NCBI GenBank assembly: GCA_002715375.1
Contig: PAZA01000060.1
Location: forward strand, 1 to 40,442
Reading direction: 5' to 3'
DNA from: Halobacteriovoraceae bacterium
GTDB lineage: Bacteria > Bdellovibrionota > Bacteriovoracia > Bacteriovoracales > Bacteriovoracaceae
Length of the DNA stretch: 40,442 bases
The notes beneath the pieces were generated by a model. The model did no database searches. It was given only the letters and a program-made list of their open reading frames with translations, and was not told the DNA's origin. The translations under genes and the position numbers were made by a program. Below are positions 10,669 through 40,442 of the stretch, piece after piece. Positions within the stretch are counted from its first letter, which is position 1, and each line of letters opens with the position of its first letter.

Positions 10669-10846
10669 AGTTTTTTCCTCGTTTGAAAATTACTGGCCGC
10701 TTTTCTTTTTCAATCCTTTTATTACCAATCTCTTTGGAAAAGGGCAATGGAGTTTGGCGTAATTACTGGACATTCCTACCTTATGGATAGTTGTGACATG
10801 TTGTGTTATGTTGTTAAGGTTAAGAATGGGTGTTTAGGTGGGGTTA

Positions 10847-16821: not shown

Positions 16822-17378
16822 TGATCTGAAAGTTTCCTTTTTATATACCTGATAAGGCCACCTACAATGGGAATATGCTCATAAATAAAAGCACCCATAT
16901 CAAAGTAATCTCTGTGGAAAATAACAAGGCCAGTTTTCGGATCAAACTTTAAATGAGAAACTCCTTCAAGTTTTATCTCTTTTCCTGATTTTAGAGATTT
17001 GCTTTTTAGATACATAATCCAAGAAAGCATGTGGGTGTTATCATTATTCGTTGAATCTTTGAAATCAAATCTAATATCGACAACATTTTGATAGAGGTTT
17101 AAATAGTATTTTATCATCTCTTCTCGTCCATTAATTGTACCGAGTGGATCCTTAAAAATGAGGTTAGGGTGATAAAATTTTTCACAGAGTGATTTCATAT
17201 TTGAAAAGTTGGCCGAATTAAAAAACTTAATGACTCTTTCTTTTGGGTCTTTAGGTAGGGTAACGTTTGTCATAGATGAAGTTGGTAGCGAATAAGAAAA
17301 AATAAAAATAGGAAAAATAAAAAAGTTTTTAAGAGAAGCTACTTTGCGAAGAAGGCCTATTTTATTTTTATGACACAT
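16818..17378 (-). CDS. Nuclear transport factor 2 (SnoaL)-like protein
   Basis: Protein of 186 residues. An N-terminal basic and hydrophobic stretch (KNFFIFPIFIFSYSLPTSS) looks like a signal peptide or anchor. The NTF2-like cone fold follows: ERVIKFFNSANF, CEKFYHPNLIFKDPLGTINGREEMIKYY and a last strand block IFHRDYFDMGAFIYEHIP. ATG at 17378 is chosen because AAAGG lies about 8 bases upstream; it overlaps the TetR gene by 11 bases. It is last in the lipid operon, and NTF2-like proteins are known companions of FAD-oxidoreductase/DUF1365/CFA gene sets in Proteobacteria. No catalytic role can be assigned. The stop overlaps that of the convergent oxidoreductase gene by 4 bases. Confidence 0.78.
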   Translation of the reverse strand: MCHKNKIGLLRKVASLKNFFIFPIFIFSYSLPTSSMTNVTLPKDPKERVIKFFNSANFSNMKSLCEKFYHPNLIFKDPLGTINGREEMIKYYLNLYQNVVDIRFDFKDSTNNDNTHMLSWIMYLKSKSLKSGKEIKLEGVSHLKFDPKTGLVIFHRDYFDMGAFIYEHIPIVGGLIRYIKRKLSDH

Positions 17379-17973
17379 CTTTGAGACCTTTTGCAAATTG
17401 AGTAAGAATCCTTGAAAAGTTATCTTTAAAAGATTTTGAATAAGGAGAAACTCCAACAATAGATTTCGTGAGTCTAGGGAAGCTATAGGGAGTAATTATA
17501 ATGCATGTTATTAAAAAAAGAAGATACCTTTCATCAATATTTTGGTCGATTAACCCTTCCTCTTTTTTCTTCCTTATCTCTTCTTCTCCAAATTCGTAAC
17601 TTTCATTTAAAATATCTTTGATAATTTTCAGACCCAATGGTTTGTCTTCTAAAGAGTCTCTCAGCATGATTTTAATAATTTCTTTGCTTTTTTCTGCTTT
17701 ATTAAGCCAAAAGAGGAGGGCTTCGTCTAAAGATGGTGGAAGCTCTTTATATCCTTTTTTTATTTTTCCTAAGATATTCATGAGAGTTTTTGCGTATAGG
17801 TCGTCTTTATTTTTAAAGTAGTGATAGATAAGTGCTTTATTAAACTTTGAGTGATGAGCAACATCATCTATCCTCGCGCCTTCTTTACCATTTTTAATAA
17901 AAATAGCTGCAGCTACATCCAAAATGTGTGAGATGGATTTTTGTGAATCTCTTTTTCTCAATTCAAACCTCAT
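17368..17973 (-). CDS. TetR family transcriptional regulator
   Basis: Protein of 201 residues. The N-terminal helix-turn-helix spans about residues 14-60: ILDVAAAIFIKNGKEGARIDDVA, then a recognition helix ending in the signature KALIYHYFKNKDDLY (46-60). The helical C-terminal ligand-binding domain is unlike any I can name. Its ATG overlaps the stop of the upstream CFA synthase by four bases (ATGA), so it is made as part of the lipid operon. A 7-4-7 inverted repeat 51 bases before the first gene of the operon is the obvious candidate binding site, implying negative autoregulation of the whole operon. The inducer is likely an acyl-CoA or lipid-derived molecule, by analogy only. Confidence 0.92.
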   Translation of the reverse strand: MRFELRKRDSQKSISHILDVAAAIFIKNGKEGARIDDVAHHSKFNKALIYHYFKNKDDLYAKTLMNILGKIKKGYKELPPSLDEALLFWLNKAEKSKEIIKIMLRDSLEDKPLGLKIIKDILNESYEFGEEEIRKKKEEGLIDQNIDERYLLFLITCIIITPYSFPRLTKSIVGVSPYSKSFKDNFSRILTQFAKGLKDVS

Positions 17974-19223
17974 TGGTGAGCAAGTAAATTATTAGGCTTT
18001 GAGTAAATCAATTGAACAACACTGATATTTTTTTGAAAAAAAGCGGCCTCACAGTATTTTAAATAGTAATTCCATTTTCTAATAAACTCTTTGGAAAATC
18101 CTAGTTTTTCTACTTGATCAATATTGTTATTAAAATTTTCGGCCCATTTGTTTAGTGTTAAGGCATAATCTTGTCCCATATCTTTCAATGAGTAAAGTTC
18201 GAAACCACCATTTTTTACTAAAGATTGATTCATTGTTTGAAGAGACGGTAAAAGAGAGCCGGGGAAGATATGCTTTTGAATCCAATCAATCCCTTTTCTG
18301 AATTCTTTATACCGACTATGTGGGGATGTAATAACTTGAAGCCCTAACAACCCTTTAGGAGAAAGAACTTGGTTAATTTTCTTAAAAAAGGTGTCATAAA
18401 ACTTATGTCCAACTGCTTCGAGCATTTCAATTGAGATAATTTTATCATAACTGCCTTCTAAATTCCTATAATCCATTAATTTAAGATTAATTTTGTGATC
18501 GACATTTTCCTTTTTGTGGAGCTTTTTAGCGTAGTCAAACTGTTCTTCAGATATAGTAATTGTCGTTACTTTACAACCAAATTCCTTGGCTAAAAGAAGG
18601 GAAAGACCTCCCCACCCCGTACCTATTTCTAAAACATGATCAGAAGATTTAATTTTAAGTTTTTTTGCAAGCGACAGATACTTATCTTTTTGAGCTGTCT
18701 CTAAATCTTTTTGTTGATTATCGAAAAGAGCACATGAATAAGTCATACTTTTGTCGAGAAAAGTATGATAAAAGTCATTTGATATGTCGTAATGATCTCC
18801 AATATTTTTTTTGCTTCCTTTAATTGTATTGTCTTTTAACTTGTGGCCTATCTTATTAATAAATTTAAAGAGGTTAACAAAGGAGGATCCTTTTTTTTGA
18901 CTACCAGAGATAGAAATGCCTTGCTCAATATTTAGAATAAACCATGAGATAACATTAAAGATACAGGGCGTATCCCAATATCCTTTTACATAACCTTCAC
19001 CAAAACCAATGTCCCCTTTTAGAATGATATCTCTAAAAATTTTTGGGTTTTTTATTTTAAGTTCTACCTTGGCTGATTTTAAGTCTTTTCCATAGATGAA
19101 GTTTTCACCGTTGGGAAGGGTTAGACTCAAATGACCTCTTTCCATGCTTTCAAGATGATTTAAAATCATATCTTGGCAGGTTTTATCGAAAAAATTGCCT
19201 TGGTGATTTGATAGATTATCCAT
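17970..19223 (-). CDS. Cyclopropane-fatty-acyl-phospholipid synthase family protein (long form)
   Basis: SAM-dependent methyltransferase acting on unsaturated phospholipid acyl chains; 417 residues. The N-terminal domain has IKNPKIFRDIILKGDIGFGEGYVKGYW, typical of CFA synthases. HYDISNDFYHTFLDKSMTYSCALF marks the catalytic domain, and the SAM loop is VLEIGTGWGGLSLLLA. A conserved block FIRKWNYYLKYCEAAF is near the C-terminus. ATG at 19223 is preferred to the upstream ATG at 19256 because AGAGG sits 6 bases before it and the overlap with DUF1365 falls to 8 bases. Next to the FAD oxidoreductase and DUF1365 it is the usual partner in this cluster. The product may be cyclopropane or a methyl-branched chain; sequence alone does not decide. 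Confidence 0.92.
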   Translation of the reverse strand: MDNLSNHQGNFFDKTCQDMILNHLESMERGHLSLTLPNGENFIYGKDLKSAKVELKIKNPKIFRDIILKGDIGFGEGYVKGYWDTPCIFNVISWFILNIEQGISISGSQKKGSSFVNLFKFINKIGHKLKDNTIKGSKKNIGDHYDISNDFYHTFLDKSMTYSCALFDNQQKDLETAQKDKYLSLAKKLKIKSSDHVLEIGTGWGGLSLLLAKEFGCKVTTITISEEQFDYAKKLHKKENVDHKINLKLMDYRNLEGSYDKIISIEMLEAVGHKFYDTFFKKINQVLSPKGLLGLQVITSPHSRYKEFRKGIDWIQKHIFPGSLLPSLQTMNQSLVKNGGFELYSLKDMGQDYALTLNKWAENFNNNIDQVEKLGFSKEFIRKWNYYLKYCEAAFFQKNISVVQLIYSKPNNLLAHQ

Positions 19224-19974
19224 AAAGTACCTCTGTTTGTTTATCTTTGTTTTCATTCTTTTTTATATATTTCAATTTTTTAAACCAAAGGATAAAAGCA
19301 TGCCAATGAATCAAGAACATAACTTTTAGTGTTTGAAGGGGAAAAGAAAAAATAAGTGAGATTAAATTTTTCCTAGTAATCTCTTTTGATTTTGCACGAA
19401 AAGTTGCTGTAAGAATTTTGGAATCATCTTGAATACTATCAACTTTTAGGAAAATTTCTTCTTCTTTCTCTTTGTTATTCATTTGGGAAAAAAAATTAAA
19501 AATCGTATCTAAGGGAATAAATGGAGAAACATAGAATAGTTTTTTAGTTTTTAATGAAGCTGTATTGCCTTTTATAATCGAATGATGGAAAATTTTTTGT
19601 TCTTTAAAAGTATTTCCAACTTCATAAATGATGGAGGAAAGTTTATCAAACTTATCAAAACAAAAAAACACACTAATGGGATTAAAGACATAACCAAAAA
19701 TTCTAAGGTTTGTTAGAAAGTAGATTTTATTGATATCTTTTTTCGTTATTTCTTTAAAGTGATCTTTTAATTTATCTTTGTTTAAGATGTAGTGGTCTTT
19801 TTTATTGAAGTTAAAAATCCCTTTTCTTTTATAACTGAGTAAAGGAAAAAATTTATCGAGGGAGTTTAGGTCATCTAAGTCTAAAAAAAACATGAAGTGT
19901 TTTAGAGAAAGCGAATATTTAATAGGGCGAGTTCTAATATGGTGAACTTTCCCAATAAATATTTGGGACTTCAA
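19216..19974 (-). CDS. DUF1365 family protein
   Basis: Protein of 252 residues. The family opening IFIGKVHHIRTRPIKYSLSLKHFMFFLDLDDL lies directly after the start, and GYVFNPISVFFCF (the conserved NPxSxxY/F-like block) and FHVSPFxP-like FYVSPFIPLD follow. TTG at 19974 is chosen: GGAG lies 6 bases before it and TTGA gives a 4-base overlap with the stop of the FAD oxidoreductase. An ATG at 20004 would need a 34-base overlap and add residues outside the family. The C-terminus has a hydrophobic stretch (VMFLIHWHAFILWF), so membrane association is possible. DUF1365 proteins regularly sit between a FAD oxidoreductase and a CFA synthase; biochemical role not established to my knowledge. Confidence 0.87.
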   Translation of the reverse strand: MKSQIFIGKVHHIRTRPIKYSLSLKHFMFFLDLDDLNSLDKFFPLLSYKRKGIFNFNKKDHYILNKDKLKDHFKEITKKDINKIYFLTNLRIFGYVFNPISVFFCFDKFDKLSSIIYEVGNTFKEQKIFHHSIIKGNTASLKTKKLFYVSPFIPLDTIFNFFSQMNNKEKEEEIFLKVDSIQDDSKILTATFRAKSKEITRKNLISLIFSFPLQTLKVMFLIHWHAFILWFKKLKYIKKNENKDKQTEVLYG

Positions 19975-21230
19975 ATTACACTCCGTTTTAGAATTGATTC
20001 GCATAAATTAACGGAAGAGAGAAGTGCATCCTCATGAAAACCATATCTAAAATAACTTCCAGTGAAATAGATGGATGTGTCTTGATTCAGGCTAGGTAAA
20101 AGCTTTTGAGCTTTAATTGCTTCAATATCAAAAAGAGGGTGTTCATAGTCAATGACTTTTAAGACTTTTTCAGGATTTATGTCTTTTTCTCCATTGATTG
20201 AAATAAAAAAGTGATTCTCGTTTGAGACTCCTTGAAGCTTATTCATATAGTAAATTGTTGAAGCGGTTATCTCACTATCAACTTTTTTAAAAATATAATT
20301 CCAACTTGCCCAAGCCATTTTCTTGGATGGCATCAATGAAGTATCTGTGTGAACAGTGGCCTTATTCTTTTCATATCGAAAAGAAGTTAATATTTTAAGC
20401 TGTTTTTCCGTGGGATTTTGAAGCATCTTTAAGGCCTCATCTCCATGACAGGCCAAAACAACTTTGTCGAAGTTTGTCTTTCCATCGTCCGTGTGAACAG
20501 TGACAGTTTCATCTTTTTCCTTAAAAATACCTCTAACTGGTGCATTGATATATATTTTTTCGGCAAATGGTTTTGTTAATTTTTTACAGTAATTCCTGCT
20601 ACCTCCATCAACTGTGTACCATTGGTGCTGAGTGTTTAATCCCAAAAAACCGTGATTATAGAAGAATTGGATGAGCGTTGTGATTGGAAAATTCAACATT
20701 TTATTTGGAGGTGTGGACCAGACTGCAGAACTCATCGGAATTAAGTAATCTTCAAGAAATGAAGAAGAATACTTTTCTCTTTCAATGTATTCTCCTATCG
20801 TCAAATACTCATTGCCATTACCTTCGAGTAACTTTGGAGCATTTTGATTAAATTTATTAATTTCCATTAAAAATTTATAGTAGGATGGGTTTAGAAGGTT
20901 TTTTCTTTGAGAAAAAAGGTGGTTTAGGCTTGATCCTGAGTATTCAAGACCTTTTGTTTTATTTTGAACACTAAAGCTCATGTCACTTTTTTTTATCTTT
21001 ACATCTAATTTTTTAAAAAGCTTCACAAGATTAGGATATGTTTCAAAATTAAAAACCATAAAACCTGTATCAAAAGAAGTTTCTTCTGGCTTCTTTACAT
21101 CAATGGTATTTGAATGACCCCCTATATAGTCTTTTTTTTCAAATACAGTGATGTCATAATCTTTGTGAAGAAAATATGCAGCTGACATACCTGCAATACC
21201 AGTTCCGATAATGGCCATTTTTTCTTTCAT
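19971..21230 (-). CDS. FAD-dependent amine-oxidase-type oxidoreductase
   Basis: Protein of 419 residues with the dinucleotide motif IIGTGIAGMSAAYFL (7-21), the acidic FAD-ribose end VFEKKDYIGGHSNT, and the substrate-side blocks MSSAVWSTPP and TVDGGSRNY. The last part has the FAD motif YFTGSYFRYGFHEDAL. The family includes phytoene-desaturase-like and amine-oxidase-like enzymes. In the lipid cluster it is presumed to oxidise or desaturate a methylated acyl chain. AGAGG precedes the ATG. It starts 20 bases after the short CFA methyltransferase and is coupled to DUF1365 by a 4-base overlap. In related clusters this flavoprotein is a member of singlet-oxygen-induced gene sets; that link here is inference. 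Confidence 0.9.
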   Translation of the reverse strand: MKEKMAIIGTGIAGMSAAYFLHKDYDITVFEKKDYIGGHSNTIDVKKPEETSFDTGFMVFNFETYPNLVKLFKKLDVKIKKSDMSFSVQNKTKGLEYSGSSLNHLFSQRKNLLNPSYYKFLMEINKFNQNAPKLLEGNGNEYLTIGEYIEREKYSSSFLEDYLIPMSSAVWSTPPNKMLNFPITTLIQFFYNHGFLGLNTQHQWYTVDGGSRNYCKKLTKPFAEKIYINAPVRGIFKEKDETVTVHTDDGKTNFDKVVLACHGDEALKMLQNPTEKQLKILTSFRYEKNKATVHTDTSLMPSKKMAWASWNYIFKKVDSEITASTIYYMNKLQGVSNENHFFISINGEKDINPEKVLKVIDYEHPLFDIEAIKAQKLLPSLNQDTSIYFTGSYFRYGFHEDALLSSVNLCESILKRSVI

Positions 21231-21250
21231 TTTATCCTCTGGTCTTTAAG

Positions 21251-22273
21251 TTATTTTTTTAAAAGGTAGTGACCTACATACCACTCATTCCCTCTGTCAT
21301 ATCCCCATAACTCTGCACAGGATAGGAAGAAAACCCTCCAATAACTGAACCATTTTTTCTCTTGCCCGACTCCATAACATTTTTTAAATATTTCTAATAT
21401 CTCACTTTTATTAGAATCCATATTATTTAACCAGCCATAGGATGTTTTTTTGTAGTGCTCTCCAGAAACAGTCCAGGTTTTTTCAACTTTTAAATGTTCA
21501 TTGAAATAATAGAGCAGGTGTTCACTTGGCATGATCCCACCACTAAAAAAATATCGACTCATCCAATCAGTTTCATCTTTTACATCAAAATAGTAGGTGT
21601 AGTCTTTATGAACGAAGATATGAACAAATAATTTACCATCACTTTTTAGAAAGGATGAAACTTTACCTAGAAGTTCTTTATAATTTCTCATATGTTCGAA
21701 CATTTCAATAGAGAGAACTCTATCGAACTTGGTATCTGTCTGGAAGTCATTTATATTTTTTGTAATAACAGTTAAATTATTCAATCCTCTCTTTTCTATT
21801 TCTGAATCGATATAAGTTTTTTGAGTTGATGAATTTGATACACTCATGATTTTTGAATCTGGGTATTTCTTCGCAAGAAAGAGGCTTAAAGAACCCCAGC
21901 CGCATCCTAGGTCAAGTATTGTTTGACCGTTTTGAAGTTCTGCTCTTTCTGAATAGGCTTCAAGCATCTCTAACTCTGCTTCGTCAAGACTTTTAGCTTT
22001 ATCCCATAAGCAGCAGCTGTATTTTAAATGTTTTCCCAAAACTTTTTGGTAAAACTTTGTTGGTACTTCATAATGTTGTTCATTGGCGGTTTTGACTTGT
22101 TCGGCAATTGGCCCTGATGATAACTCTGAACAGAGTTTTTTTAAGTGTATATTGTTTTTTTCTATACTGCCTTGATCTTCATCTTTGAGTCTTTGTCCTA
22201 AAAGACCTTTAATTTTCCATTTGATAAGAGAATCGGGTAAGAGGTTTTGTTCTAAAAGGTAATTTCCTAACAT
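21251..22273 (-). CDS. CFA-like SAM-dependent methyltransferase (short form)
   Basis: Protein of 340 residues related to cyclopropane fatty acid synthases but lacking most of the N-terminal domain of the longer paralogue in this operon. EQHYEVPTKFYQKVLG and YSCCLW (substrate-side blocks) precede the SAM loop ILDLGCGWGSLSLFLA (119-134); FDRVLSIEMFEHMRNY follows. AAGGAG lies 8 bases upstream of the ATG, which overlaps the desaturase stop by 7 bases. Two CFA-type enzymes in one operon imply either different acyl positions or a second methyl transfer. Eukaryotic coclaurine N-methyltransferases share this short architecture, so an N-methyl acceptor cannot be excluded. Confidence 0.87.
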   Translation of the reverse strand: MLGNYLLEQNLLPDSLIKWKIKGLLGQRLKDEDQGSIEKNNIHLKKLCSELSSGPIAEQVKTANEQHYEVPTKFYQKVLGKHLKYSCCLWDKAKSLDEAELEMLEAYSERAELQNGQTILDLGCGWGSLSLFLAKKYPDSKIMSVSNSSTQKTYIDSEIEKRGLNNLTVITKNINDFQTDTKFDRVLSIEMFEHMRNYKELLGKVSSFLKSDGKLFVHIFVHKDYTYYFDVKDETDWMSRYFFSGGIMPSEHLLYYFNEHLKVEKTWTVSGEHYKKTSYGWLNNMDSNKSEILEIFKKCYGVGQEKKWFSYWRVFFLSCAELWGYDRGNEWYVGHYLLKK

Positions 22274-23004
22274 GTTTGGGACTCCTTAATTTTTATGACA
22301 TGAAACTTTTCCATTAATTTGGCCATAAAATAAATGGGATCTTTCTCAAACCAGCGGATAGCAAAGTTTAGTTTTTGTGGATGGTGGTGATGATTATTTT
22401 GGTAGAGTTCCCCCATCATGAGAAAATCAAAAAAGAGTGTATTTTTAGACTTGTCACCGAGGTCAAAATTTCTATAACCGTATTTATGTCCGCACCAATT
22501 AACAATGGCACCATGAATTGGCCCCATTAAAGAATGGATCGGTACGCAGATGAGGGCGGTCCAAAAGTTGGTAAAATAAAGATAAAGTGCAAGGTAAATA
22601 AGAATCCAGGTGATTCTTGTGAACCAAGAGTCTGCAAATTTGTCTAAAAATGTCCATTTTGGAGTATGAGTAATTTTTTTAAAGACAAAGCTTTTATCTA
22701 ATAAGGACATATATTCTGAGTATGTTTTTTTCATAAGTGATGAAAGAGACTTATGAAAATGGGGTGAATGGGGATCTTTTTCTGTATCACTATAAGAGTG
22801 ATGCCTTCTATGCATTTCTGCGTAGGCTGAAGGGTTCAGATATGATGGACCCTGGGAAATGAATGTCAAAACATAAAAAAACTTTTCGAAAAAAGAATTC
22901 ATTTGAAACATTCTGTGTGCAGCATATCTATGAAGGAAAAAACTTTGGCAAAAGAGAGAGAGGTACCAATGGATTATTAAAAAAATTAAAACTGTTAAAA
23001 ACAT
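22267..23004 (-). CDS. Fatty acid (acyl-CoA/acyl-lipid) desaturase
   Basis: Membrane di-iron desaturase of 245 residues with the three histidine boxes of the Delta-9 group: HRYAAH (25-30), HRRHH (65-69) and NNHHHH (203-208). There are hydrophobic segments at 1-20, 40-55 and 130-160. The protein is shorter than most relatives (about 280-400) because it begins only two dozen residues before box 1. The ATG has GAAGG about 10 bases upstream. As first gene of the operon it would provide the double bond that the two CFA-type enzymes need. A TetR-type inverted repeat lies 51 bases upstream. Confidence 0.92.
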   Translation of the reverse strand: MFLTVLIFLIIHWYLSLFCQSFFLHRYAAHRMFQMNSFFEKFFYVLTFISQGPSYLNPSAYAEMHRRHHSYSDTEKDPHSPHFHKSLSSLMKKTYSEYMSLLDKSFVFKKITHTPKWTFLDKFADSWFTRITWILIYLALYLYFTNFWTALICVPIHSLMGPIHGAIVNWCGHKYGYRNFDLGDKSKNTLFFDFLMMGELYQNNHHHHPQKLNFAIRWFEKDPIYFMAKLMEKFHVIKIKESQTC

Positions 23005-29759: not shown

Positions 29760-31721
29760 ATGGTGGTACTTTATTTTAAAATAATTTCTATAATTACGCT
29801 TACTTATTTGTTAGCGGGAGCAAGAGTTTACTCTAGTGATGAAGTTATTTTAAAATCTATAAATGATAAGTTTAGTTTGGGTAGTTCCCTCTTCTTGTAT
29901 GAAGATAAAACGAATAAGCTAACTCATAAAGATATACAAAAACCAGAATTCGATCAATTATTTAAGCGTTCAAATCAAGAAGTCCCTTCCTTTGGTGTAA
30001 CAAGTTCAACAATTTGGGTCAAGATAATCATAACAAATAGAACAAAAGAGAAAAGTTGGATTTTAAAAAATGAGGTTGTTTGGCACGATTATTTTGATTT
30101 TTTCTCGATGGACAATGGGAAGCTTAAGGTATTTGAAACCGGTGATAGAAGATCTTTTAAAAAAAGAGATTTAAACTATAGAGGTTTTGCTTTTAATATT
30201 AGTCCTAAGGAAAAATCAATTTATTATATAAAAATTAAAAGTAAGGATGACTTATCGATTCCTCTTGAAATACTTACATTGAGGGATTTCTTATTAGAAG
30301 AGAAAGATGTAATGACGGGGTATGCTCTTTTTTATGGTGCCATTTTAATCATGGTTTTTTATAACCTTATAACTTACTTTTTTACAAGGGACTCTAGTTA
30401 TCTTTATTATTCTCTTACGATAACTGCAATTCTTTGGACTACTGCTGCTGCCAATGGAATTGCTTTTCAATTCCTTTACCCGAATTCGTTTTGGTTACAA
30501 AATGAAGGGTTCCTGTTAAGGGGAGGATTAATCGGTTTATTCCTTCATTTGTTTTTAAAAAAATTCCTTCTTATTAATAAACGAGAAAATAGGCGCATTT
30601 ATAATATTCTTCAAATTAATATTTATACTTCATTAATTTTTATTCTATTATCTTTTTTTGGCATTTATAGATTACTTTATTTTCCCTTCATATCATTTGT
30701 TATTTTTGCTTTTTGTTTTATTATTCTTGCTGGTTTGGTTCGATTAAAGCAAGGATACAGACCAGCAAGGTTTTATTTGTTGGCCTTCAGTGGATTCTCC
30801 TTAGGAGGATTGGTGCAATCCCTAAGTCTTTTAGGATTTATACCTCCTTTATGGATTGTTAGCCATGCTTTTCAAATAGGCAATTTATTTCAAACTGTTT
30901 TTCTTGCTTTTGCCTTAGGAGACAAATTTAAAAGACTTCAGGAGGAGGCCCTTGAACGAGAAATAGAAGCAAGAAAAGTTATGACAAATTTTGCTAGCAA
31001 ATTGGAAGAACAAGTAAGAGAAAGGACTAAAGAATTAGCAGAAAAAAATGAGCGCTTAAAAGAGTATGACTTTGCTGTTGCCCATGATTTGGCAAACCCG
31101 ATAGGTGTTGCTATAACTCATATTGAGCTTTACGAACACCTGTATACAGAAAATTTTTCGAAGACAAAAGAGGTTATTAAAAAGATAAAAAGTTCACTAG
31201 AGAAGTCTATATCAATTATTAACAATATTCTTATAAATTTTACCGTGGATAAAGTTGATTTAAAAAAGTATAAGATTTCTGAAATCTTAAATTTGGCACT
31301 TGATCAACTGGAGGTAAAAATCCAACAAAAAAATGCCAAGGTTGAGTTGGATCTAATGGTCCAGGAATTTATTTGTAATAACGCTTCTACAATCCAGATT
31401 TTTGCGAATATTATTAGTAATTCCTTGAAGTATTCTAAAAAAGAGGTTCCACCAATAATTAAAATAAGATCTTTTCAGGATAAAGATCATATTTTAATTG
31501 ATATAGAAGATAATGGAATAGGTATTAAAAAAGATATGATGAATCTTATCTTTGAGAAAAAAGGACGTGTTAGTGAAAGCGAAGAAGCTCCTAAAGGGCA
31601 TGGAATCGGTTTATACAATGTAAAAAAGATGGTTGAGGAAAATGAAGCTGAAATAAGTGTTAAGTCTGACTTTGGAAAAGGTTCAATTTTTACTCTTAAA
31701 TTTAAAAAGAAAATCTTTTAG
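29760..31721 (+). CDS. Sensor histidine kinase with 7TMR-DISM input module
   Basis: Protein of 653 residues: signal segment (7-22), an extracellular 7TMR-DISMED2-type beta domain (about 30-175, with GVTSSTIWVKI), a 7TMR-DISM seven-helix membrane block (about 186-388), a coiled coil (393-435), then the kinase core. The phosphoacceptor is His442 in AVAHDLANPIG. The ATPase has N550/N554 (NIISNSLKY), D584-G588 (EDNGIG) and GHGIG (613-617). No receiver domain and no response regulator gene nearby, so it is an orphan sensor here. DISM extracellular domains are thought to bind carbohydrates or other small ligands. No clear ribosome site precedes the ATG. Its 3' end overlaps the convergent RND pump gene by 39 bases. 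Confidence 0.9.
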   Translation: MVVLYFKIISIITLTYLLAGARVYSSDEVILKSINDKFSLGSSLFLYEDKTNKLTHKDIQKPEFDQLFKRSNQEVPSFGVTSSTIWVKIIITNRTKEKSWILKNEVVWHDYFDFFSMDNGKLKVFETGDRRSFKKRDLNYRGFAFNISPKEKSIYYIKIKSKDDLSIPLEILTLRDFLLEEKDVMTGYALFYGAILIMVFYNLITYFFTRDSSYLYYSLTITAILWTTAAANGIAFQFLYPNSFWLQNEGFLLRGGLIGLFLHLFLKKFLLINKRENRRIYNILQINIYTSLIFILLSFFGIYRLLYFPFISFVIFAFCFIILAGLVRLKQGYRPARFYLLAFSGFSLGGLVQSLSLLGFIPPLWIVSHAFQIGNLFQTVFLAFALGDKFKRLQEEALEREIEARKVMTNFASKLEEQVRERTKELAEKNERLKEYDFAVAHDLANPIGVAITHIELYEHLYTENFSKTKEVIKKIKSSLEKSISIINNILINFTVDKVDLKKYKISEILNLALDQLEVKIQQKNAKVELDLMVQEFICNNASTIQIFANIISNSLKYSKKEVPPIIKIRSFQDKDHILIDIEDNGIGIKKDMMNLIFEKKGRVSESEEAPKGHGIGLYNVKKMVEENEAEISVKSDFGKGSIFTLKFKKKIF

Positions 31722-34700
31722 ATCTTCACCGATATGATAAAAACAGGGTACTAAAAAAATAGTGAGTGGTGTTGCAACTATAAGACCATAACCTAAGCTT
31801 AAGGCCATTGGCATCATGAAGGGATCTGAGCCACCTATTCCATAGGCCAAAGGAAGAAGGCCAACAACTGTTGTTAAAGTCGTTATTAAAATAGGTCTTA
31901 ATCGGTGTGAAATGGCTTCAACCATGAGTGCATTTTTTTCTTCAGGGTTAGAGGCTTTCTTTATCGTCTCATTTAAATGATTTACTAAGACTAATGAGTC
32001 ATTAACAACAACACCAGCTAGTCCGATAGCTCCAAGCATGGCCATAAAACTAAGTGATTCCTGATGAATAGCAAATGAAATAATGACGCCGACAACGCCA
32101 AAGGGAATCGCAAGCATGACATAAATTGGTTGAAAGTATGAGTTAAAAAGTAAAACTAATAAAAAGTAGATTCCAATACCTGCGAAAATAAAAGTACTGA
32201 AAAGACTTTTTATAGATTTTTTAGTTTCTTCGGCTTCACCGCCAATTATAAAACGGGTTCCAGGATAATCTTTATCCAAATTATAAGAGGATATAATTTC
32301 TTGAGTTACTTTAACAGGGTCAGTTATACTTTGATCTAAATCAGCTGTAACAGTGATACTTCTTTCGCCATTATGGTGTTTTATAAAGCCTTTTCCAACT
32401 TGATTTTTAAAATAGGTCGCCTTACCTAGGGATATAAGCCTTCCATTTATATTGGGAATTTGAATTTTACTAATATTTTCTTCTATCATACGATCCTGCT
32501 CACTAAGGATTACGATGTATTCAATATCCTCATCTCCTCTTCTGATAGAAGTCGCTTTTACTCCATCAAAGGCCATTCTAAGTGACTTTACTACTGTTGG
32601 CAGATTAAGACCTAGGCGGGATAGTTTTTCATAATTAAAGAGAAGTTGAATTTCTTCTTTTCCAGGCCTTTGATCATTCTCAATGTCTTTTACACCTTTA
32701 ATACTTTTGAGTTTTTTCTCTACTGATTTTGCTAGCCTATTTCTTAAATTATCCTCCGCTCCAACAATTTGAATATCAATAGGTCTGCCAACGGGAGGTC
32801 CACCGGAAACAATATTAAAATTAATAGATTTATAATTTTTTACATTTTTTATTTTAGTTCTAAGCTCTTCTACTATTTCTCTTGCGACTCTTTTTCTTTG
32901 TCCATAAGGCGTAAGATCAATATAAATGACGGACCAATTGTCTCTCATCCTTGTTTTTATTTCATCTGCCCACATTCCTATTCTTGTAGAAAAAGAAAGA
33001 ATTTCACTCTTTTTTGATTTTAATAGAATATTTTCGATTTGAGCTATTTGCCTTTTATTTTCTAATAGGGTGACTCCCTTTTTAAGTTCGGCTGTAATAA
33101 TAATTCTCTCAGACACAGATTCAGGAAATAAGATAAATTGCATATAATTTTTGGCGTAATATAATGTACTTAATAATAAGATAAAAAAGAAAAATACAAA
33201 AAAGTACCGGAGTTTTAAAAATACCTTCGTTAAGTATATGAAGGGTTTTTTTATCCAAGTCTCAAACCATTCCCCTTCTTCTTTACTTTTTAATTTGTGA
33301 AGTCCTGGAACTAAGTGGGAAGGAAGAATAAAGGCACATTCGAAAAATGATATAAAAAGGGCAGCGCTTATAATAAGTGGAATGACAGCGATAAATTTTC
33401 CCATAAGCCCAGTCATAAAAAACATTGGAGCAAAGGCAAGAAAAGTCGTTAAAATTGTTGTAAGAACTGGCTTGAAAACTTCGGCAGTTCCATCGACAGC
33501 AGCTTCAACAGGAGTCTTTTTTAATTCTGAAAAATGACGGTAGATGTTTTCAGCAACGATGATAGCGTCATCAACAATAATTCCGACAACAATAATCATC
33601 GCGGTTAAAGAAACTGTGTCAAGGGCCATATTAATTGACTGTAAATAAATAATTGAGCCTAGAAGTGAAAAAGGAATACCGAGTGCTACCCAAAATGCAG
33701 TTCTATAGTATAAAAAAACGGAGAGAAGCAAGTTTACTAAAATAAGACCTAGTATTCCGTTATTTGCCACAATTTGAAATTTATCTCTTACAACTCTGGA
33801 GTTATCATTATTTAAAATAAACTTAACTTCACCTTTATAGATTTCTCTTTGCTCTTTAATAATTTTATTAATTTCATCAACCGTCTTAACTACATCAGCT
33901 ACCTCATTTTTATAAATAATAAGAGAAATAGCTTCTTGTCCATTAATATTTGTATAAATTTGAGGCGTTTGAAAACTTTCATTGACGAAGGCTAAATCTT
34001 GAATTCTTATCCTTTTACCTTCGAAGTTAGATCTAATGATCACATTTTTTACATCTTTTAAGTCTTTGAATTCGGCGAAAGGGACGATATTTTTTTCTTT
34101 GGTTAATTGAGTGATTTTTCCTACCGTTGTTCTTCTATTTCTTTTATTTAAAGCTTCATGAATTTGAAGGATCGAAATATCATTTTCAATTAATTTGGAA
34201 AGGGATGCCTCAATTTTCACTTGAGGAGAATAGAGACCAAAGCTTTCTATTCGAGAAATGCCATCTATGCTTTTTAATTTATTTTTGAAAATTTTAGCTA
34301 TTTGACGAAGTTTTTTATAATCTAAATGACTTGTTATACCAACTTCAAGGATTGGAAACATAGATGCGTTAAGTTCTGATATTTTGGGCTTACTTTGAAG
34401 ATCAGTAGGGAAGTCTGAGATTTGGCCAACATTCCTTCTTATTTCGTCTTTTACTTTTTCTTTATCAACTGCATTTTCGTCTATATAAATAACAACCCTA
34501 GAAATACCTTCTTGAGAAATAGAGAAACTTTTTTTTACATTTGAAATTAAATTAATCTTATTTTCTATTTTATTGGTTATTTTTAACTCGACATCTTCAG
34601 CAGACACTCCTGGATAATAAGTGACAATCATGACTCTTTGGAAATCGACTTCTGGTTGGGAATCTTTGTTTATTGTAAATAGACAATATAAACCTAAAGA

Positions 34701-34769
34701 GATAACAAAAAAGGTAAGAAGATGACTAAATGTTCTTCGAACAACAAAGAATTTTAAAACCTCTCTCAT
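31683..34769 (-). CDS. RND family efflux transporter permease
   Basis: Inner-membrane proton-driven pump of 1028 residues, near the AcrB family length. TM1 is at 15-32; the large periplasmic loop begins with FQRVMIVTYYPGVSAEDVE. The second helix bundle has the TM4 pair Asp400/Asp401 (IIVVGIIVDDAIIVAENIYRH) required for proton relay. A second loop contains SGGPPVGRPIDIQIVG. The repeat half has the matching AIGLAGVVVNDSLVLVNHLNE. No membrane-fusion partner or TolC-like gene adjoins it, so partners must lie elsewhere. The LGLNLPTVVKSLRMAFDG block suits the broad HAE-type group rather than metal pumps. The start is ATG; only a weak ribosome site (AAGA) is seen. Confidence 0.93.
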   Translation of the reverse strand: MREVLKFFVVRRTFSHLLTFFVISLGLYCLFTINKDSQPEVDFQRVMIVTYYPGVSAEDVELKITNKIENKINLISNVKKSFSISQEGISRVVIYIDENAVDKEKVKDEIRRNVGQISDFPTDLQSKPKISELNASMFPILEVGITSHLDYKKLRQIAKIFKNKLKSIDGISRIESFGLYSPQVKIEASLSKLIENDISILQIHEALNKRNRRTTVGKITQLTKEKNIVPFAEFKDLKDVKNVIIRSNFEGKRIRIQDLAFVNESFQTPQIYTNINGQEAISLIIYKNEVADVVKTVDEINKIIKEQREIYKGEVKFILNNDNSRVVRDKFQIVANNGILGLILVNLLLSVFLYYRTAFWVALGIPFSLLGSIIYLQSINMALDTVSLTAMIIVVGIIVDDAIIVAENIYRHFSELKKTPVEAAVDGTAEVFKPVLTTILTTFLAFAPMFFMTGLMGKFIAVIPLIISAALFISFFECAFILPSHLVPGLHKLKSKEEGEWFETWIKKPFIYLTKVFLKLRYFFVFFFFILLLSTLYYAKNYMQFILFPESVSERIIITAELKKGVTLLENKRQIAQIENILLKSKKSEILSFSTRIGMWADEIKTRMRDNWSVIYIDLTPYGQRKRVAREIVEELRTKIKNVKNYKSINFNIVSGGPPVGRPIDIQIVGAEDNLRNRLAKSVEKKLKSIKGVKDIENDQRPGKEEIQLLFNYEKLSRLGLNLPTVVKSLRMAFDGVKATSIRRGDEDIEYIVILSEQDRMIEENISKIQIPNINGRLISLGKATYFKNQVGKGFIKHHNGERSITVTADLDQSITDPVKVTQEIISSYNLDKDYPGTRFIIGGEAEETKKSIKSLFSTFIFAGIGIYFLLVLLFNSYFQPIYVMLAIPFGVVGVIISFAIHQESLSFMAMLGAIGLAGVVVNDSLVLVNHLNETIKKASNPEEKNALMVEAISHRLRPILITTLTTVVGLLPLAYGIGGSDPFMMPMALSLGYGLIVATPLTIFLVPCFYHIGEDLKDFLFKFKSKN

Positions 34770-34802
34770 GACATCTTATTGTGGTCCAAAAGGAAATTCA
34801 TA

Positions 34803-35246
34803 TCAAGATATTATTACGACTTTAAAATAAGAATAACTGCCTAAAAGAATAATATAGATGGCAAGGAAAAAGTGGAAAAAGATGGGGATACTGCCCCTTG
34901 GCCAAGTTATTTCAGGCTCTTTTATTTTATGGATAATAAAACGAATAATCATTAGGGCAAAGTATAACACTCCAAAGTATATATAATAAGTTGATGTTTT
35001 ATCATTTAAAATTAAAAATAAGGGACCTCTTCCCATGTATAGACAAAAATTAAAGATAACCATGCAGGTGTAAATAAAAATTTGATAGGTTAGAAGTATT
35101 GGGTATGGCATAAGACCTGAGTACCACATGTCCATCTTAGGCAGATAGGTAGGTGAGTATATGCCCACAAAAATTTGTGCTAAGATCCTTCCTAAAAAAA
35201 CTATGGTGATAAACCACAAGAGTAATTGGTAAATAATGTTTGTCAT
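34803..35246 (-). CDS. Small integral membrane protein, unknown
   Basis: Protein of 147 residues, mostly hydrophobic, with four probable membrane helices (about 5-28, 48-70, 84-106, 119-142) and few charges, mainly HKIKEPEITWPRGS between helices 3 and 4. It is 33 bases upstream of the RND pump on the same strand, so the two may be co-transcribed. Only a weak ribosome site (TAGGTC) is visible before the ATG. I recognise no family; a pump accessory protein is possible but unsupported. Confidence 0.6.
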   Translation of the reverse strand: MTNIIYQLLLWFITIVFLGRILAQIFVGIYSPTYLPKMDMWYSGLMPYPILLTYQIFIYTCMVIFNFCLYMGRGPLFLILNDKTSTYYIYFGVLYFALMIIRFIIHKIKEPEITWPRGSIPIFFHFFLAIYIILLGSYSYFKVVIIS

Positions 35247-35489: not shown

Positions 35490-38165
35490 ATGAAGTTCAA
35501 GCCTTTAAATAATTATGCTTCAAATTTATTTCATTCTGTTTTTCCGTATTTAATTTACCCAGGTACGCTCTTATCAGGTTTTTTATTTTTTAATTTTTTG
35601 AAAGAAAACGAAGTCCATCCATATATAGCAGCGATGAGTTCTCTTATGTTTTCTTCAATTTTAATTACCTTTTTTGAATTTACTTATCCTTATCGAAAAG
35701 AATGGCAAAACATTAAAAGTGATGTGAAGACCGATTTTTTACATATGGGTGTCACTCAGCTTATTTTACCAAGAATTTTAGAATTCTTTTTTGTACCTAT
35801 ATTTTATACATTAATAACTTCTATTATTTCAGAGTATAGATGGGAGTCTTTTACACACTTTTGGCCACACCATTCACCGATATGGTTCCAAGTAATTTTA
35901 ATGATGGTTTGCAATGAGTTTTTGCGTTATTGGGTTCACAGAATGGCCCACACGAAAAGGTTCTTATGGAAGTTACATTCTGTTCATCACAGTTCAGAAG
36001 TCCTATATTGGTTTAATTCTGGTAGGTTTCACCCTTTGGAAAAGGTCATTCAGTTTATTCCTGATACTCTAATTTTTCTTCTCATTGGTATGAATGAAGC
36101 CGTTTTAACGACCTACTTAGTTTTCTATGGTATTAATGGTTTTTTTCAGCATTCAAATATAAATGTAAAGTTTGGCTTTCTTAATTATATCATTAGTAGT
36201 TCTGAGCTTCATAGGTGGCATCATTCTGAGATTCCCAGAGAATCTAATGGTAATTATGGAAACAACCTCATTATTTGGGATGTTATTTTTGGAACATGGT
36301 TTTTACCAAAAGACAGATCTGTAGGTGAAATTGGTCTAAGAAATAGGAATTTTCCCAAGGAGTACTTAACTCAGTTAAAGGCACCTTTTATTTCTAAAAT
36401 AGACTTGAAAGAAGTTCCTGTTCCAACTTCATATGAAATTTTGGAAGGTATTGGTCATAAAATATTAAATTTTGCTATGAAGAGTAAGGTCCTAATTGTA
36501 GGGTCTTATCATTATAAAAACCTTGTTAATGCCTGTCATAACCCAAGAGAGACTCAAGAAAAAGTCCTTTTAAATATTCTCGATTTTCAAAAGGAGACTT
36601 TTTTTGGTCGTGAACATAATTTTAATAAAATTAATTCAATTAAAGAGTTTCAAGATAATGTTCCTCCACAGGACTATGAGTCATTAAGGCCTTTTATAGA
36701 TAAGCAGGATGAAACAGGTGAGCCTCATATTAATGCTGAAGACCCCATAATTTATGCAGTTACAAGTGGTAGTACAGGATCTCCAAAGTTTATACCTGTA
36801 TTAAAAAGAACTATAGAGTCTTTTAAAAGAAGTCAGTTAATTCAAGCCTATTCACAAATTATGGAAAGAGATGATGTTATAAGCGGTAAAATTATGGCCA
36901 TAATGGGTGCCAGTATTGAAGGGCATAGAAAGTCCAATATTCCTTACGGATCAGCCTCGGGGTTTGTTAAAGACCATGCCCCTAAAATAGCAAAGAAAAA
37001 ATATGTTATTCCTGGAGAGGTTGCTTATATTGAAGACAACCTCTTAAAATATCAAGCGATTATACGTCTCATACTTTGTCATGACGATATAACTTTTTTA
37101 GGCTCAGCTAATCCCTCAACCTTTATAAGAATTTTAGATTTGGTTAATGAGTATTGGAGCGAGTATTCTGTTGACTTGAAGGAGGGAACATTTTTTAGAG
37201 ATGATGATCTTGATGATAATGTAAAAAAAGCACTTCAACCTCTTTACTCATATAATCCTGATAAAGCTGAGAGGTTAGATAAAATTTTTAAAGATGATGG
37301 TGGAATTAAGTTACTCCATATTTTTCCAAACCTTCAAATACTTGCGACTTGGACTGGGGGAAGCTGCGGAACTGCCTTAGGGCATTTAAAGGGACAGTTT
37401 CCTGAAAAAATGTTAATTAGAGATGCAGGTTATCTGTCTAGTGAATTTAGAGGGACCATCCCTTTAACCTCAAATAAAACGACAGGAATACCAACTATTT
37501 TGGATAACTTTTATGAGTTTATTGAACGAGATTTATATGACAGTGGTGATAGAAACTTTATTCTTATTGATCAACTAGAAGATAGAAAAGAGTATTATAT
37601 TTTTGTAACCACTGAATATGGTCTCTATCGTTACTTTATGAACGATGTCATAAGAGTCGAGGGGTTTAAAAATAAAACACCAAGAATAAAATTTATTCAA
37701 AAGGGAAGAGGCGTTACGAATATTACTGGTGAAAAACTCTATGAGGGACAATTAATAGATGCTATGTCTGTTACCGAAAATGAAATGCATTTAAATTCCA
37801 AGTTTTTCTTGATGGTAGCTAATGAAAAGGATTCTTGTTATGAACTTTTTATTGAGCCTTCTAATAATTCGAGAGAAGAGTTTAAAAAACATCTAAAAGT
37901 CTTTTCTGAAAACTTAGATGATCATTTATCTAATATTAATGTAGAGTTTTATGCTAAAAGGAAAAGTGGTAGATTAAAAGCAACTCACGTATCTTTGTTA
38001 AAAAAGAACACTTATGAAGAAATGAAAAACTTTTACATCGAAGTTAAAAAACAAAGAGAAGCTCAATTTAAACCTAATCTTCTACAGTATCAAAAAGATT
38101 TAGAGTTTCAAATCAATAACTATGCAGAAGATTCAAGAGAAATCGATATAAAGAAAAAAGCCTAA
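35490..38165 (+). CDS. Fusion: sterol desaturase-type di-iron hydroxylase + GH3 acyl-adenylase
   Basis: Protein of 891 residues made of two enzymes. Residues 1-285 form a membrane-bound fatty acid hydroxylase/sterol desaturase domain with helices at about 18-37, 45-65 and 95-115 and the histidine clusters HRMAH (150-154), HSVHH (163-167), HPLE (181), QHSN (221) and HRWHH (241-245). Residues about 330-880 form a GH3 family domain: ATP loop TSGSTGSPKFIPV (425-437), WTGGSC (621-626), LYRYFMNDVIRV (712-723) and ITGEKLYE (745-752). GH3 enzymes adenylate a carboxylate and conjugate it to an amine, often an amino acid; the hydroxylase part would oxidise a membrane lipid. No frameshift joins the two. 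Weak ribosome site (TAGAG). Substrates unknown. Confidence 0.9.
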   Translation: MKFKPLNNYASNLFHSVFPYLIYPGTLLSGFLFFNFLKENEVHPYIAAMSSLMFSSILITFFEFTYPYRKEWQNIKSDVKTDFLHMGVTQLILPRILEFFFVPIFYTLITSIISEYRWESFTHFWPHHSPIWFQVILMMVCNEFLRYWVHRMAHTKRFLWKLHSVHHSSEVLYWFNSGRFHPLEKVIQFIPDTLIFLLIGMNEAVLTTYLVFYGINGFFQHSNINVKFGFLNYIISSSELHRWHHSEIPRESNGNYGNNLIIWDVIFGTWFLPKDRSVGEIGLRNRNFPKEYLTQLKAPFISKIDLKEVPVPTSYEILEGIGHKILNFAMKSKVLIVGSYHYKNLVNACHNPRETQEKVLLNILDFQKETFFGREHNFNKINSIKEFQDNVPPQDYESLRPFIDKQDETGEPHINAEDPIIYAVTSGSTGSPKFIPVLKRTIESFKRSQLIQAYSQIMERDDVISGKIMAIMGASIEGHRKSNIPYGSASGFVKDHAPKIAKKKYVIPGEVAYIEDNLLKYQAIIRLILCHDDITFLGSANPSTFIRILDLVNEYWSEYSVDLKEGTFFRDDDLDDNVKKALQPLYSYNPDKAERLDKIFKDDGGIKLLHIFPNLQILATWTGGSCGTALGHLKGQFPEKMLIRDAGYLSSEFRGTIPLTSNKTTGIPTILDNFYEFIERDLYDSGDRNFILIDQLEDRKEYYIFVTTEYGLYRYFMNDVIRVEGFKNKTPRIKFIQKGRGVTNITGEKLYEGQLIDAMSVTENEMHLNSKFFLMVANEKDSCYELFIEPSNNSREEFKKHLKVFSENLDDHLSNINVEFYAKRKSGRLKATHVSLLKKNTYEEMKNFYIEVKKQREAQFKPNLLQYQKDLEFQINNYAEDSREIDIKKKA

Positions 38166-38169
38166 TATT

Positions 38170-39285
38170 TTATTCTAAAATATTTTTAATTTTTTTACCA
38201 ATAATTTGAGAATCTTTTCTAATATTAACAAGTCCTCCTGTTGAGTCGTAATTTTGTCCTACATAAAATAGATTCGAAAAAATATAATCTTCAACTCGAT
38301 CCTTTCTTTTAGCAAAGCCTTTATTGTCCATCTCAATTTTAACTTCAAAAATATCAAAATTAACCTTGAAGCCAGTAGCTAGAATTATTGTATCTATTTT
38401 TTTAAACTCGTTGTTTTCTAGAATAATGCCATCTTCTTTATAGGAGATGATTTTTTTTTGATATTTAATTGAACCTTTTTTTATAGATTTTAAGAACTTT
38501 TTTCCAATAATGGGAGGGCGGTCTAAAGGACTATAATTCGGTCTAGGTATCAAAGGGCCACCGCTTAGTAGATCTATAAAAAAATTACCTATTTTAATCA
38601 AAGCCAATTGAAATGTCTTTGGAAACACAGACATGATGTAGCCTACATATTGGATAGGGAAGCCTAGCACAGATAATGGCGCTACATTGGCGCCGCTTTT
38701 AATATAAATTGTTGTATCAATGCCTTCTTCTGAAAGCTCATAAGATATTTCAGCAGCAGAATTTCCTGCCCCTACTATTAATACACTTTTATCTTTATAT
38801 AGTTCAGGGGTTTTATATTTAATGCTGTGTATTATCTCTCCTTTAAACTGTTCTATTCCATTTATTTTTGGGGTAAAGGGAAAGCTTGCAAGTCCAACGC
38901 CTAAAACTAAGAAGTCACATTCAAATATTTCATTGTCTAAAAAAACCTTCCATTTATTATTAATGACTCTTTCAATCTTTTTAACTTCTGAAGAAACTTG
39001 AATGGGCAACTTGAATTGATTCTTATAATCCTCCATATAATCAATGAATTGTTTTTTTGGTGGGAAAAGATTTACTTCTTTTTTAAATTTCATTCCAGGT
39101 AAATGTGAAAGATGCTTTCCTGTATGTAAAGTTAGACTTTTATAAAAGATCCTCCAACTATTTGCTATATGTTTTCCTTTTTCTAGAATTAAATGATCTA
39201 TATCGTAGTCTTTTAAAACTTTAGAAGTGGCCAATCCTGCTGGACCTGCACCTATAATAATTACCTTTTTGTATATTGTTTCCAT
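38170..39285 (-). CDS. YUCCA-like flavin-containing monooxygenase
   Basis: Protein of 371 residues. FAD loop IIGAGPAGLATSKVL (10-24), then ANSWRIFYKSLTLHTGKHLSHLPGM, the block where plant YUCCA enzymes read similarly. The flavin-monooxygenase signature FxGxxxHxxxY is complete (FKGEIIHSIKY, 147-157). NADPH loop VLIVGAGNSAAEIS (168-181), and ILATGFK near the C-terminus. It lacks the longer C-terminal part of Baeyer-Villiger enzymes. AGGGG precedes the ATG by 9 bases. It follows the BASS transporter gene with a one-base gap, on the strand opposite to the GH3 fusion gene and 4 bases from its end. YUCCA enzymes decarboxylate indole pyruvate; the substrate here is not shown by sequence. Confidence 0.88.
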   Translation of the reverse strand: METIYKKVIIIGAGPAGLATSKVLKDYDIDHLILEKGKHIANSWRIFYKSLTLHTGKHLSHLPGMKFKKEVNLFPPKKQFIDYMEDYKNQFKLPIQVSSEVKKIERVINNKWKVFLDNEIFECDFLVLGVGLASFPFTPKINGIEQFKGEIIHSIKYKTPELYKDKSVLIVGAGNSAAEISYELSEEGIDTTIYIKSGANVAPLSVLGFPIQYVGYIMSVFPKTFQLALIKIGNFFIDLLSGGPLIPRPNYSPLDRPPIIGKKFLKSIKKGSIKYQKKIISYKEDGIILENNEFKKIDTIILATGFKVNFDIFEVKIEMDNKGFAKRKDRVEDYIFSNLFYVGQNYDSTGGLVNIRKDSQIIGKKIKNILE

Positions 39286-39286
39286 T

Positions 39287-40150
39287 TTATTTTTCCCCTT
39301 TTCTTATAAATAAACCATAAGCTGTACCTGATATGTACATCAATATGCCGTAAGAGCCCGGAACGATACTCATTTCCCAACTTTGTAAAATACCATTTGT
39401 TATAAATAAGGCTAAGGCTCCATTTTGTATCCCTACCTCGAGACCTATTGTTAAAGTTTGGTCACTTCTCATTTTCATGGCCTTAGCAATCATATAACTT
39501 ATAAAGATTGCCGCAAAGTTCAAGGCTATTATTGATGGCCCAGATGCTTTTATAAAACTGAGGATATTTTCACTATTTTGTTTGAATATTCCTAAAATAA
39601 TAATTGAAAGAAAAATAATTGAAATCTTACTCATTACTTTTTCCAACTTTTTTGAAAAAATTGGTGCTGCTTTCTTTACAAGAATTCCTATTATGACAGG
39701 TACGATAGTAAAGCCGACTAGGATGAGGGATGTTTTGGTAATATCTAAGACATAACTTTGTCCACTATTAAATATATGTTTAGAGAAAAAATTAAAAAGA
39801 AAGGGTATCGTAATGGGAGATAAAAGACTCGAAATGCATGTTAGGCATATGGAAAGGGCCACGTCTCCTTTGAAGATGTAAGTAAAAATATTAGACGTTG
39901 ACCCTCCAGGGCAGAGACCTAAAACAACCAGTCCTAAAGCCAGAGTATTTGAATCGGGAAGACCGGATAAAGCTATTAAAGTGGCCAAGATTGGAAGCAT
40001 AATATTTTGTAAAATGAGACCCATAATAAATGCTTTAGGTTTTTCAAAAACCTTCTTGAAGTTGGAAAAATCGAGAGATAGTCCAATCCCAAACATAATG
40101 AGACACACTGAAAATGGTAAAAAAATCTGGATAAGTTCAGAACTTTTCAA
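39287..40150 (-). CDS. Bile acid:sodium symporter (BASS) family transporter
   Basis: Integral membrane protein of 287 residues with about nine or ten helices and the family blocks MFGIGLSLDFSNF, LGLVVLGLCPGGSTSNIFTYIFKGDVALS (two central regions that line the sodium and substrate path) and VGIQNGALALFIT. BASS proteins import organic anions such as bile acids, pyruvate or pantoate with sodium. The TTG at 40150 is chosen because AAAGGAG sits 7 bases upstream; a TTG at 40168 would place that ribosome site inside the coding region. It is the first gene of a two-gene unit with the flavin monooxygenase, so the substrate could be that enzyme's substrate or product. Confidence 0.88.
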   Translation of the reverse strand: MKSSELIQIFLPFSVCLIMFGIGLSLDFSNFKKVFEKPKAFIMGLILQNIMLPILATLIALSGLPDSNTLALGLVVLGLCPGGSTSNIFTYIFKGDVALSICLTCISSLLSPITIPFLFNFFSKHIFNSGQSYVLDITKTSLILVGFTIVPVIIGILVKKAAPIFSKKLEKVMSKISIIFLSIIILGIFKQNSENILSFIKASGPSIIALNFAAIFISYMIAKAMKMRSDQTLTIGLEVGIQNGALALFITNGILQSWEMSIVPGSYGILMYISGTAYGLFIRKGEK

Positions 40151-40203
40151 AGTTCTACTCCTTTTCAATTTTCTTTTTAATTTAACTCTACGATAATCAT
40201 TAT

Positions 40204-40442
40204 ATGTCTATAATAAATGAAATATTACTTTATCAAATGGAAATTCCATTCAAATTTAGCTTTGGCCATGGGGCGGCTAAAAGAAAGTCATCCGACTCTT
40301 TTCTTCTGGTATTGAAAACGAATGATGGAAAAATAGGAATTGGTGAAGGGTTACCTAGAGCTTATGTAACGGGTGAAACTTTAAATTCCTCAACAGAATT
40401 TTTTAAAGATCGTATTTATCCAAATATTATTCAAAGTAAAGA
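40204..40442 (+). CDS. Enolase superfamily enzyme (dipeptide epimerase/muconate cycloisomerase-like), 3' part outside window
   Basis: Only the first 79 codons are present. The product begins MSIINEILLYQMEIPFKFSF and continues with GHGAAKRKSSDSFLLVLKTNDGKIGIGEGLPRAYVTGET, the N-terminal capping-domain pattern of mandelate-racemase/muconate-lactonizing enzymes, including dipeptide epimerases and related proteins with GEGxPRxYVTGE. The ATG has no strong ribosome site. It is divergent from the BASS gene, 53 bases away. Catalytic lysines and metal ligands lie beyond the window, so substrate and class cannot be set. Confidence 0.75.
   Translation, partial: MSIINEILLYQMEIPFKFSFGHGAAKRKSSDSFLLVLKTNDGKIGIGEGLPRAYVTGETLNSSTEFFKDRIYPNIIQSK

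Follow-up and report, generated by a model that had tools for sequence, protein, structure and literature searches.

The GH3-like protein OlsH (Sinac_1599 of Singulisphaera acidiphila) was reported in 2025 to convert a free fatty acid, ornithine and ATP to N-acyl ornithine (PMC12493201). OlsH is a stand-alone protein of 526 amino acids, predicted to be soluble, and its gene lies in an operon with those of OlsG and OlsI. Its authors expect other amino acids to be used by other bacterial GH3 proteins, and state that most bacterial GH3 functions are still to be worked out; a text search of that paper found no mention of a fusion or of a hydroxylase gene (PMC12493201). OlsE, a His-cluster membrane hydroxylase, hydroxylates the ornithine head group of ornithine lipids after their N-acylation (PMC3972451), and is also a stand-alone protein, downstream of OlsB/OlsA. 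In the stieleriacine pathway, N-acyl tyrosines are made by the N-acyl amino acid synthase NasY, and stieleriacine C likely contains a D-amino acid (PMC12479983). No GH3, hydroxylase or enolase gene is described for that pathway; it resembles the one proposed here in that N-acyl amino acids are epimerised, by a step which in its case is unexplained.

We analysed a contig of 40,442 nucleotides (hereafter, the window) from the draft genome of a Halobacteriovoraceae bacterium (103 contigs, 72% complete). A single frame of 891 amino acids (35490–38165, + strand) runs from ATG to TAA with zero internal stops and encodes a membrane di-iron-type hydroxylase followed by a GH3 acyl-acid amido synthetase. 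A first-pass annotation, made from the sequence alone, had described this gene as a sterol-desaturase-type domain and a GH3 domain in one uninterrupted frame. This description is correct, as all four Pfam domains (FA_hydroxylase, GH3 N, GH3_M and GH3_C) score above their curated cut-offs. In the AF2 model (mean pLDDT 84.9), a helical membrane half is followed by a short unstructured stretch (amino acids 307–318) and then by the GH3 half; the mutual placement of the two halves is unreliable in this model (pTM 0.60). The linker between them (36390–36524, + strand; amino acids 301–345) is flexible at 307–318, where pLDDT is <50. Both the hydroxylase and the GH3 halves look active.

The hydroxylase half occupies 35490–36389 (+ strand; amino acids 1–300) and forms a helical membrane domain with predicted helices at 9–39, 44–65, 79–116, 131–155, 182–198 and 203–220. 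It belongs to the FA_hydroxylase/sterol desaturase superfamily (PF04116; amino acids 135–269, E 9e-31, 107.5 bits against a cut-off of 31). The His positions named in the first-pass annotation are right: the clusters HRMAH (35937–35951; amino acids 150–154), HSVHH (35976–35990; 163–167) and HRWHH (36210–36224; 241–245), together with His181 in RFH (36030–36032) and His221 in FQH (36150–36152), all on the + strand. The ten motif His residues that were checked are kept in every one of the 14 aligned hydroxylase rows. A search of PDB sequences with this half gave zero matches, and the tree of hydroxylase domains was poorly resolved. The hydroxylase half is very probably an active enzyme.

The GH3 half (36516–38087, + strand) consists of an N domain (amino acids 343–627, E 8e-53), an M domain (673–738) and a C domain (755–866), scoring 180, 58 and 48 bits (PF03321, PF23571 and PF23572) against a cut-off of 23.6 for each. 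Its three nucleotide motifs lie on the + strand and align throughout the 16 GH3 rows, so the ATP-binding residues, whose lack would have spoken against the first-pass reading, are in place. Motif I, TSGSTGSPK, is at 36762–36788 (amino acids 425–433; T425, S426, G427, T429 and K433 invariant in 16/16), motif II, YLSSE, at 37431–37445 (648–652; S651-E652 invariant in 16/16) and motif III, GLYRYFMND, at 37620–37646 (711–719; Y713, R714, Y715 and D719 invariant in 16/16). The first-pass annotation, which placed the ATP loop at 425–437, had proposed Ser428 for mutation; the counterpart of the essential S115 of OlsH (in TSGTTQG) is Ser426, and 10 of the 16 rows have Thr in column 428. Plant GH3 proteins (JAR1/GH3.11, GH3.6 and GH3.12) resemble this half in sequence (best E 4e-20) and in the Foldseek search (TM (target) 0.77–0.80), but they share only 17–20% identity with it in the fold search and are soluble, hormone-conjugating enzymes. 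The GH3 half is very probably an amide synthetase.

Fused genes were observed in ten Bdellovibrionota genomes from two families, the relatives having been gathered by a peptide-pattern genome scan of a kind that finds close relatives. Bacteroidota and Planctomycetota hold the majority of bacterial GH3 proteins. Besides the window, nine genomes encode the fusion as a single ORF: L003 (91% identical), L004 (73%), L026–L030, and, in the second family, L056 and L057, whose copies are in single-contig genomes. Internal stops that appeared in four of the relatives arose because the alignment overran the gene; each of the four has a single ORF, of 822–825 amino acids. Comparison of the window with L003 gives dN values of 0.045 for the hydroxylase, 0.048 for the linker and 0.041 for the GH3 part, synonymous sites being saturated or nearly so. 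Purifying selection thus extends to the linker. Zero fused copies were found among the plasmids of PLSDB.

The two enzymes also occur unfused. In an Armatimonadota genome (L005), the hydroxylase and the GH3 are separate genes with a 29-bp overlap, and this GH3 is matched in 4 of 291 Armatimonadota genomes, L005's own included. In five further loci (L031–L034 and L058), the GH3 has no adjoining hydroxylase. In the GH3 tree, fused, separate and solo copies cluster together, apart from most other GH3 proteins of Bdellovibrionota. One of the fused groups has L005 as its sister (support 99/98), and the genes may therefore have been joined, or split, on more than one occasion; the deep branch order is left unsettled by this tree. 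A second GH3 of the window genome, of 529 amino acids, falls outside the clade. Divergent GH3 genes are found at 859–2448 of L002 (contig C43 of the window genome) and in L061, L063 and L066–L069. The divergent GH3s of Bdellovibrionota recur in a cluster with protein families of ∼250 and ∼370 amino acids, in some cases with a ∼350-amino-acid protein that starts like a Rieske oxygenase (NWYIA...), and this cluster is possibly a second undescribed GH3 pathway.

The most constant neighbour of the clade GH3 is a gene of the enolase superfamily (muconate-cycloisomerase subgroup). In the window only its 5′ end is present (40204–40442, + strand), where 40225–40410 matches the enolase gene of L030 (44% identity, E 1e-12); the first-pass annotation missed this partner because the contig ends inside the gene. 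An enolase-superfamily gene lies near the clade GH3, fused or not, in all 15 loci that could be judged (the window and 14 others), which come from related genomes and are hence not independent; L003, where the contig ends first, is left out of the count. In 11 of the 15, the two genes are on the same strand, either overlapping (by 1–25 bp, nine loci) or separated by gaps of 13 and 16 bp (two loci). A single alpha/beta hydrolase gene stands between them in L032 and L033. Within the genus of the window, ∼2 kb and two opposite-strand genes separate the enolase gene from the fusion. These are, in the window, a flavin-monooxygenase-type oxidoreductase (38170–39285, − strand; Pfam Pyr_redox_3/FMO-like; syntenic in L003 and L004) and a transporter of the bile-acid:sodium-symporter family (39287–40168, − strand; Pfam SBF, 6e-40; syntenic in L004). 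When the enolase protein was searched against 126 genomes of the class, strong matches were obtained only where a clade GH3 is present: E values <1e-30 in nine genomes, all with the clade GH3 next door, followed by the incomplete copies of the window's genus (G122 and G000). The other matches were weak (∼25% identical), located elsewhere in the genome, and are probably MenC. In L004, the enolase gene (10743–11282) ends after 179 amino acids near the contig end, owing to a frameshift, a pseudogene or the assembly edge.

The enolase relatives, 13/13, keep the catalytic KxK, the metal ligands (D/E/D) and the second-face Lys; this observation rests on them since the window copy is cut before the catalytic residues. 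The fusion, the conserved catalytic residues of the three enzymes and the tight operon linkage of GH3 and enolase genes are all directly seen in sequence. A profile search of solved structures gave a dipeptide epimerase as the best match (3e-55), followed by 2p88 (1e-54), titled N-succinyl Arg/Lys racemase. Dipeptide epimerases were again the nearest in the fold search; the partner shares the catalytic Lys pair, the further Lys and the three metal ligands with 3jva, 3q45, 1jpm and 2p88 (TM 0.84–0.86). It differs from these dipeptide epimerases and the racemase in being only 22–24% identical and in its translational coupling to the GH3. On the epimerase equivalogs the partner reaches no more than 109 of the 500 bits needed (NF041118) and no more than 78 of 343 (NF011708), scores that place it outside both. 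Dipeptide epimerases end their eighth strand with a D-x-D that serves the free amino group of the substrate. At the end of predicted strand 314–318, which may be the counterpart, the partner has E318-G319-[GSA]320 in 13/13 relatives. Both kinds of solved relative, the dipeptide epimerases and N-succinyl-Arg/Lys racemase, shift the proton on the alpha carbon of N-acylated amino acids, the type of compound that a GH3 would supply.

Further genes accompany the pair. The enolase gene is followed by that of an ICMT-like methyltransferase in L027, L029 and L030; in L028, an HAE3/MMPL-type exporter comes between them. The family was assigned on the L027 copy, the other copies being alike in length and start. 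In the same position, L026 has an LCM-type methyltransferase. ICMT and LCM methyltransferases are unrelated families known for carboxyl methylation, and their sharing of one operon position is a hint that the pathway product may have a free carboxylate. L032, L033 and L058 contain alpha/beta hydrolases, a fold class to which the acyltransferase OlsI also belongs. These additions, together with the exporter, are compatible with a carboxylic lipid product. A protein with the PF13444 domain (OlsB-type acyltransferase) was not found in 9 of the 16 genomes with the pathway, including the three of the window's genus, none of which is complete; this leaves the GH3 as the only known candidate for N-acylation in many of these genomes. 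The remaining seven hold a PF13444 protein, and there the pathway may be redundant or may make a different lipid.

Elsewhere in the window, an RND efflux pump and a 147-amino-acid membrane protein without known family (31683–35246, − strand) lie upstream of the fusion and divergent from it, in an order kept in L003 and L004. A gene run at 16818–23004 (− strand), around a cyclopropane-fatty-acid-synthase-type methyltransferase (17970–19256; Pfam CMAS, 3e-84), is perhaps a second lipid-modification cluster. The gene at 320–2689 encodes a penicillin-amidase family enzyme (E 1e-195), a class of N-acyl amide hydrolases.

OlsE and OlsH are the sole NCBIfam families matched by the 891-aa protein. The hydroxylase half matches the OlsE model over its full length (NF052566; amino acids 20–303), and the GH3 half shares with OlsH the bacterial GH3 fold class, the nucleotide motifs and, by expectation, ATP-dependent amide formation. 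The scores are 173 bits against a cut-off of 475 (36%) for OlsE and 72 against 620 (12%) for OlsH (NF052613), which excludes membership in either family. Other GH3 proteins of Bdellovibrionota match the OlsH model equally well; for these reasons, the models allow only a weak inference of the substrate. Since OlsE and OlsH are the nearest named families, an N-acyl amino acid or an aminolipid is the best guess for the product, and in this respect the lipid route suggested in the first-pass annotation holds.

We slightly favour the view that the fused protein, anchored in the membrane, is a bifunctional enzyme that serves an N-acyl-amino-acid (amino-lipid) pathway, in which the enolase-superfamily partner epimerises the product. 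We infer the substrates, the order of steps and the regio- and stereochemistry of the product as follows. Using ATP, the GH3 half would adenylate a carboxylic acid (a fatty acid is the most likely) and would couple the acyl group to an amino acid at its alpha-amine; a basic amino acid of the ornithine or lysine type is plausible here. The N-acyl product would not leave the membrane, and the OlsE-like half with its His clusters would hydroxylate it there, on either the head group or the acyl chain. By removing the alpha proton that adjoins the free carboxylate, the partner would epimerise the N-acyl amino acid. The reverse order, hydroxylation and then conjugation, had been proposed in the first-pass annotation; we found no evidence for it, and the precedent of OlsE, acting on the head group after N-acylation (PMC3972451), favours amide formation first. 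Hydroxylation would be an optional step, given the five GH3–enolase loci with no adjacent hydroxylase. The parts of this proposal differ in strength. The two halves together probably make an N-acyl amino acid lipid carrying a hydroxyl; whether the enolase partner acts on this product is an evenly balanced question, and only tentatively do we suggest that it is an epimerase giving a D-configured lipid. About as tentative is the idea of a so far unrecognised, self-contained bacterial pathway whose products are membrane lipids of hydroxylated N-acyl D-amino acids; it would comprise the GH3, the fused hydroxylase and a dedicated epimerase, and would belong to Bdellovibrionota, from which an Armatimonadota lineage acquired it.

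The locus could instead be a fused form of the known ornithine-lipid route, where an OlsH-type GH3 makes the lyso-ornithine lipid, an OlsE-type half hydroxylates it, O-acylation is encoded elsewhere and the enolase is unrelated or minor. The exclusive NCBIfam matches and the alpha/beta hydrolases of the three loci named above agree with this possibility. We consider it unlikely: the scores are far under the equivalog cut-offs, neither an olsI-like nor an olsG-like neighbour was found beside the fusion in the window, and the most constant neighbour, the enolase gene, is absent from the reported OlsH operon. A conjugation of small molecules, in which a free fatty acid or terpenoid-like acid is hydroxylated and joined by the GH3 to an amino acid to give a signal or antibiotic, is less probable again. 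It would fit the likeness to the hormone-conjugating plant GH3s, and the RND or MMPL exporters and the BASS transporter nearby; on the other hand, the nearest characterised bacterial GH3 takes fatty acids (PMC12493201) and the hydroxylase is nearest to a lipid head-group enzyme. We give slightly less credence to the idea that the partner is a dehydratase or cycloisomerase, eliminating water from a product in which the hydroxylase has set the hydroxyl beta to the carboxylate, to form an N-acyl dehydroamino acid. o-Succinylbenzoate synthase is in the partner's subgroup and cis-3-hydroxyproline dehydratase also matches it, but epimerases or racemases head both the sequence and the fold matches, and the partner is present in the five loci where no hydroxylase is adjacent. 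Finally, an assembly or frameshift artefact, a concern of the first-pass annotation to which the draft state of the genome and the separate overlapping genes of L005 lend some colour, is ruled out for practical purposes by the nine further fused copies, two of them in single-contig genomes, and by the low dN through the linker.

Returning to the amino-lipid reading, each kind of enzyme in it is already known, and there is a fair chance that the pathway they form is a new aminolipid pathway. The first-pass annotation knew of no described system of this architecture. This stands for the fusion itself, as neither a hydroxylase–GH3 fusion nor a GH3–enolase pairing was found in a literature search that covered few subscription papers; the GH3 route to ornithine lipids, published in 2025 (PMC12493201), had been missed there. 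A GH3 route to bacterial aminolipids is a very recent addition to the field, and a natural fusion with a tightly coupled third gene turns it into a concrete, testable hypothesis about the product. If the partner epimerase acts on an N-acyl amino acid, it would be an enzyme that yields the D configuration in N-acyl amino acids, for which stieleriacine C currently lacks an explanation (PMC12479983).
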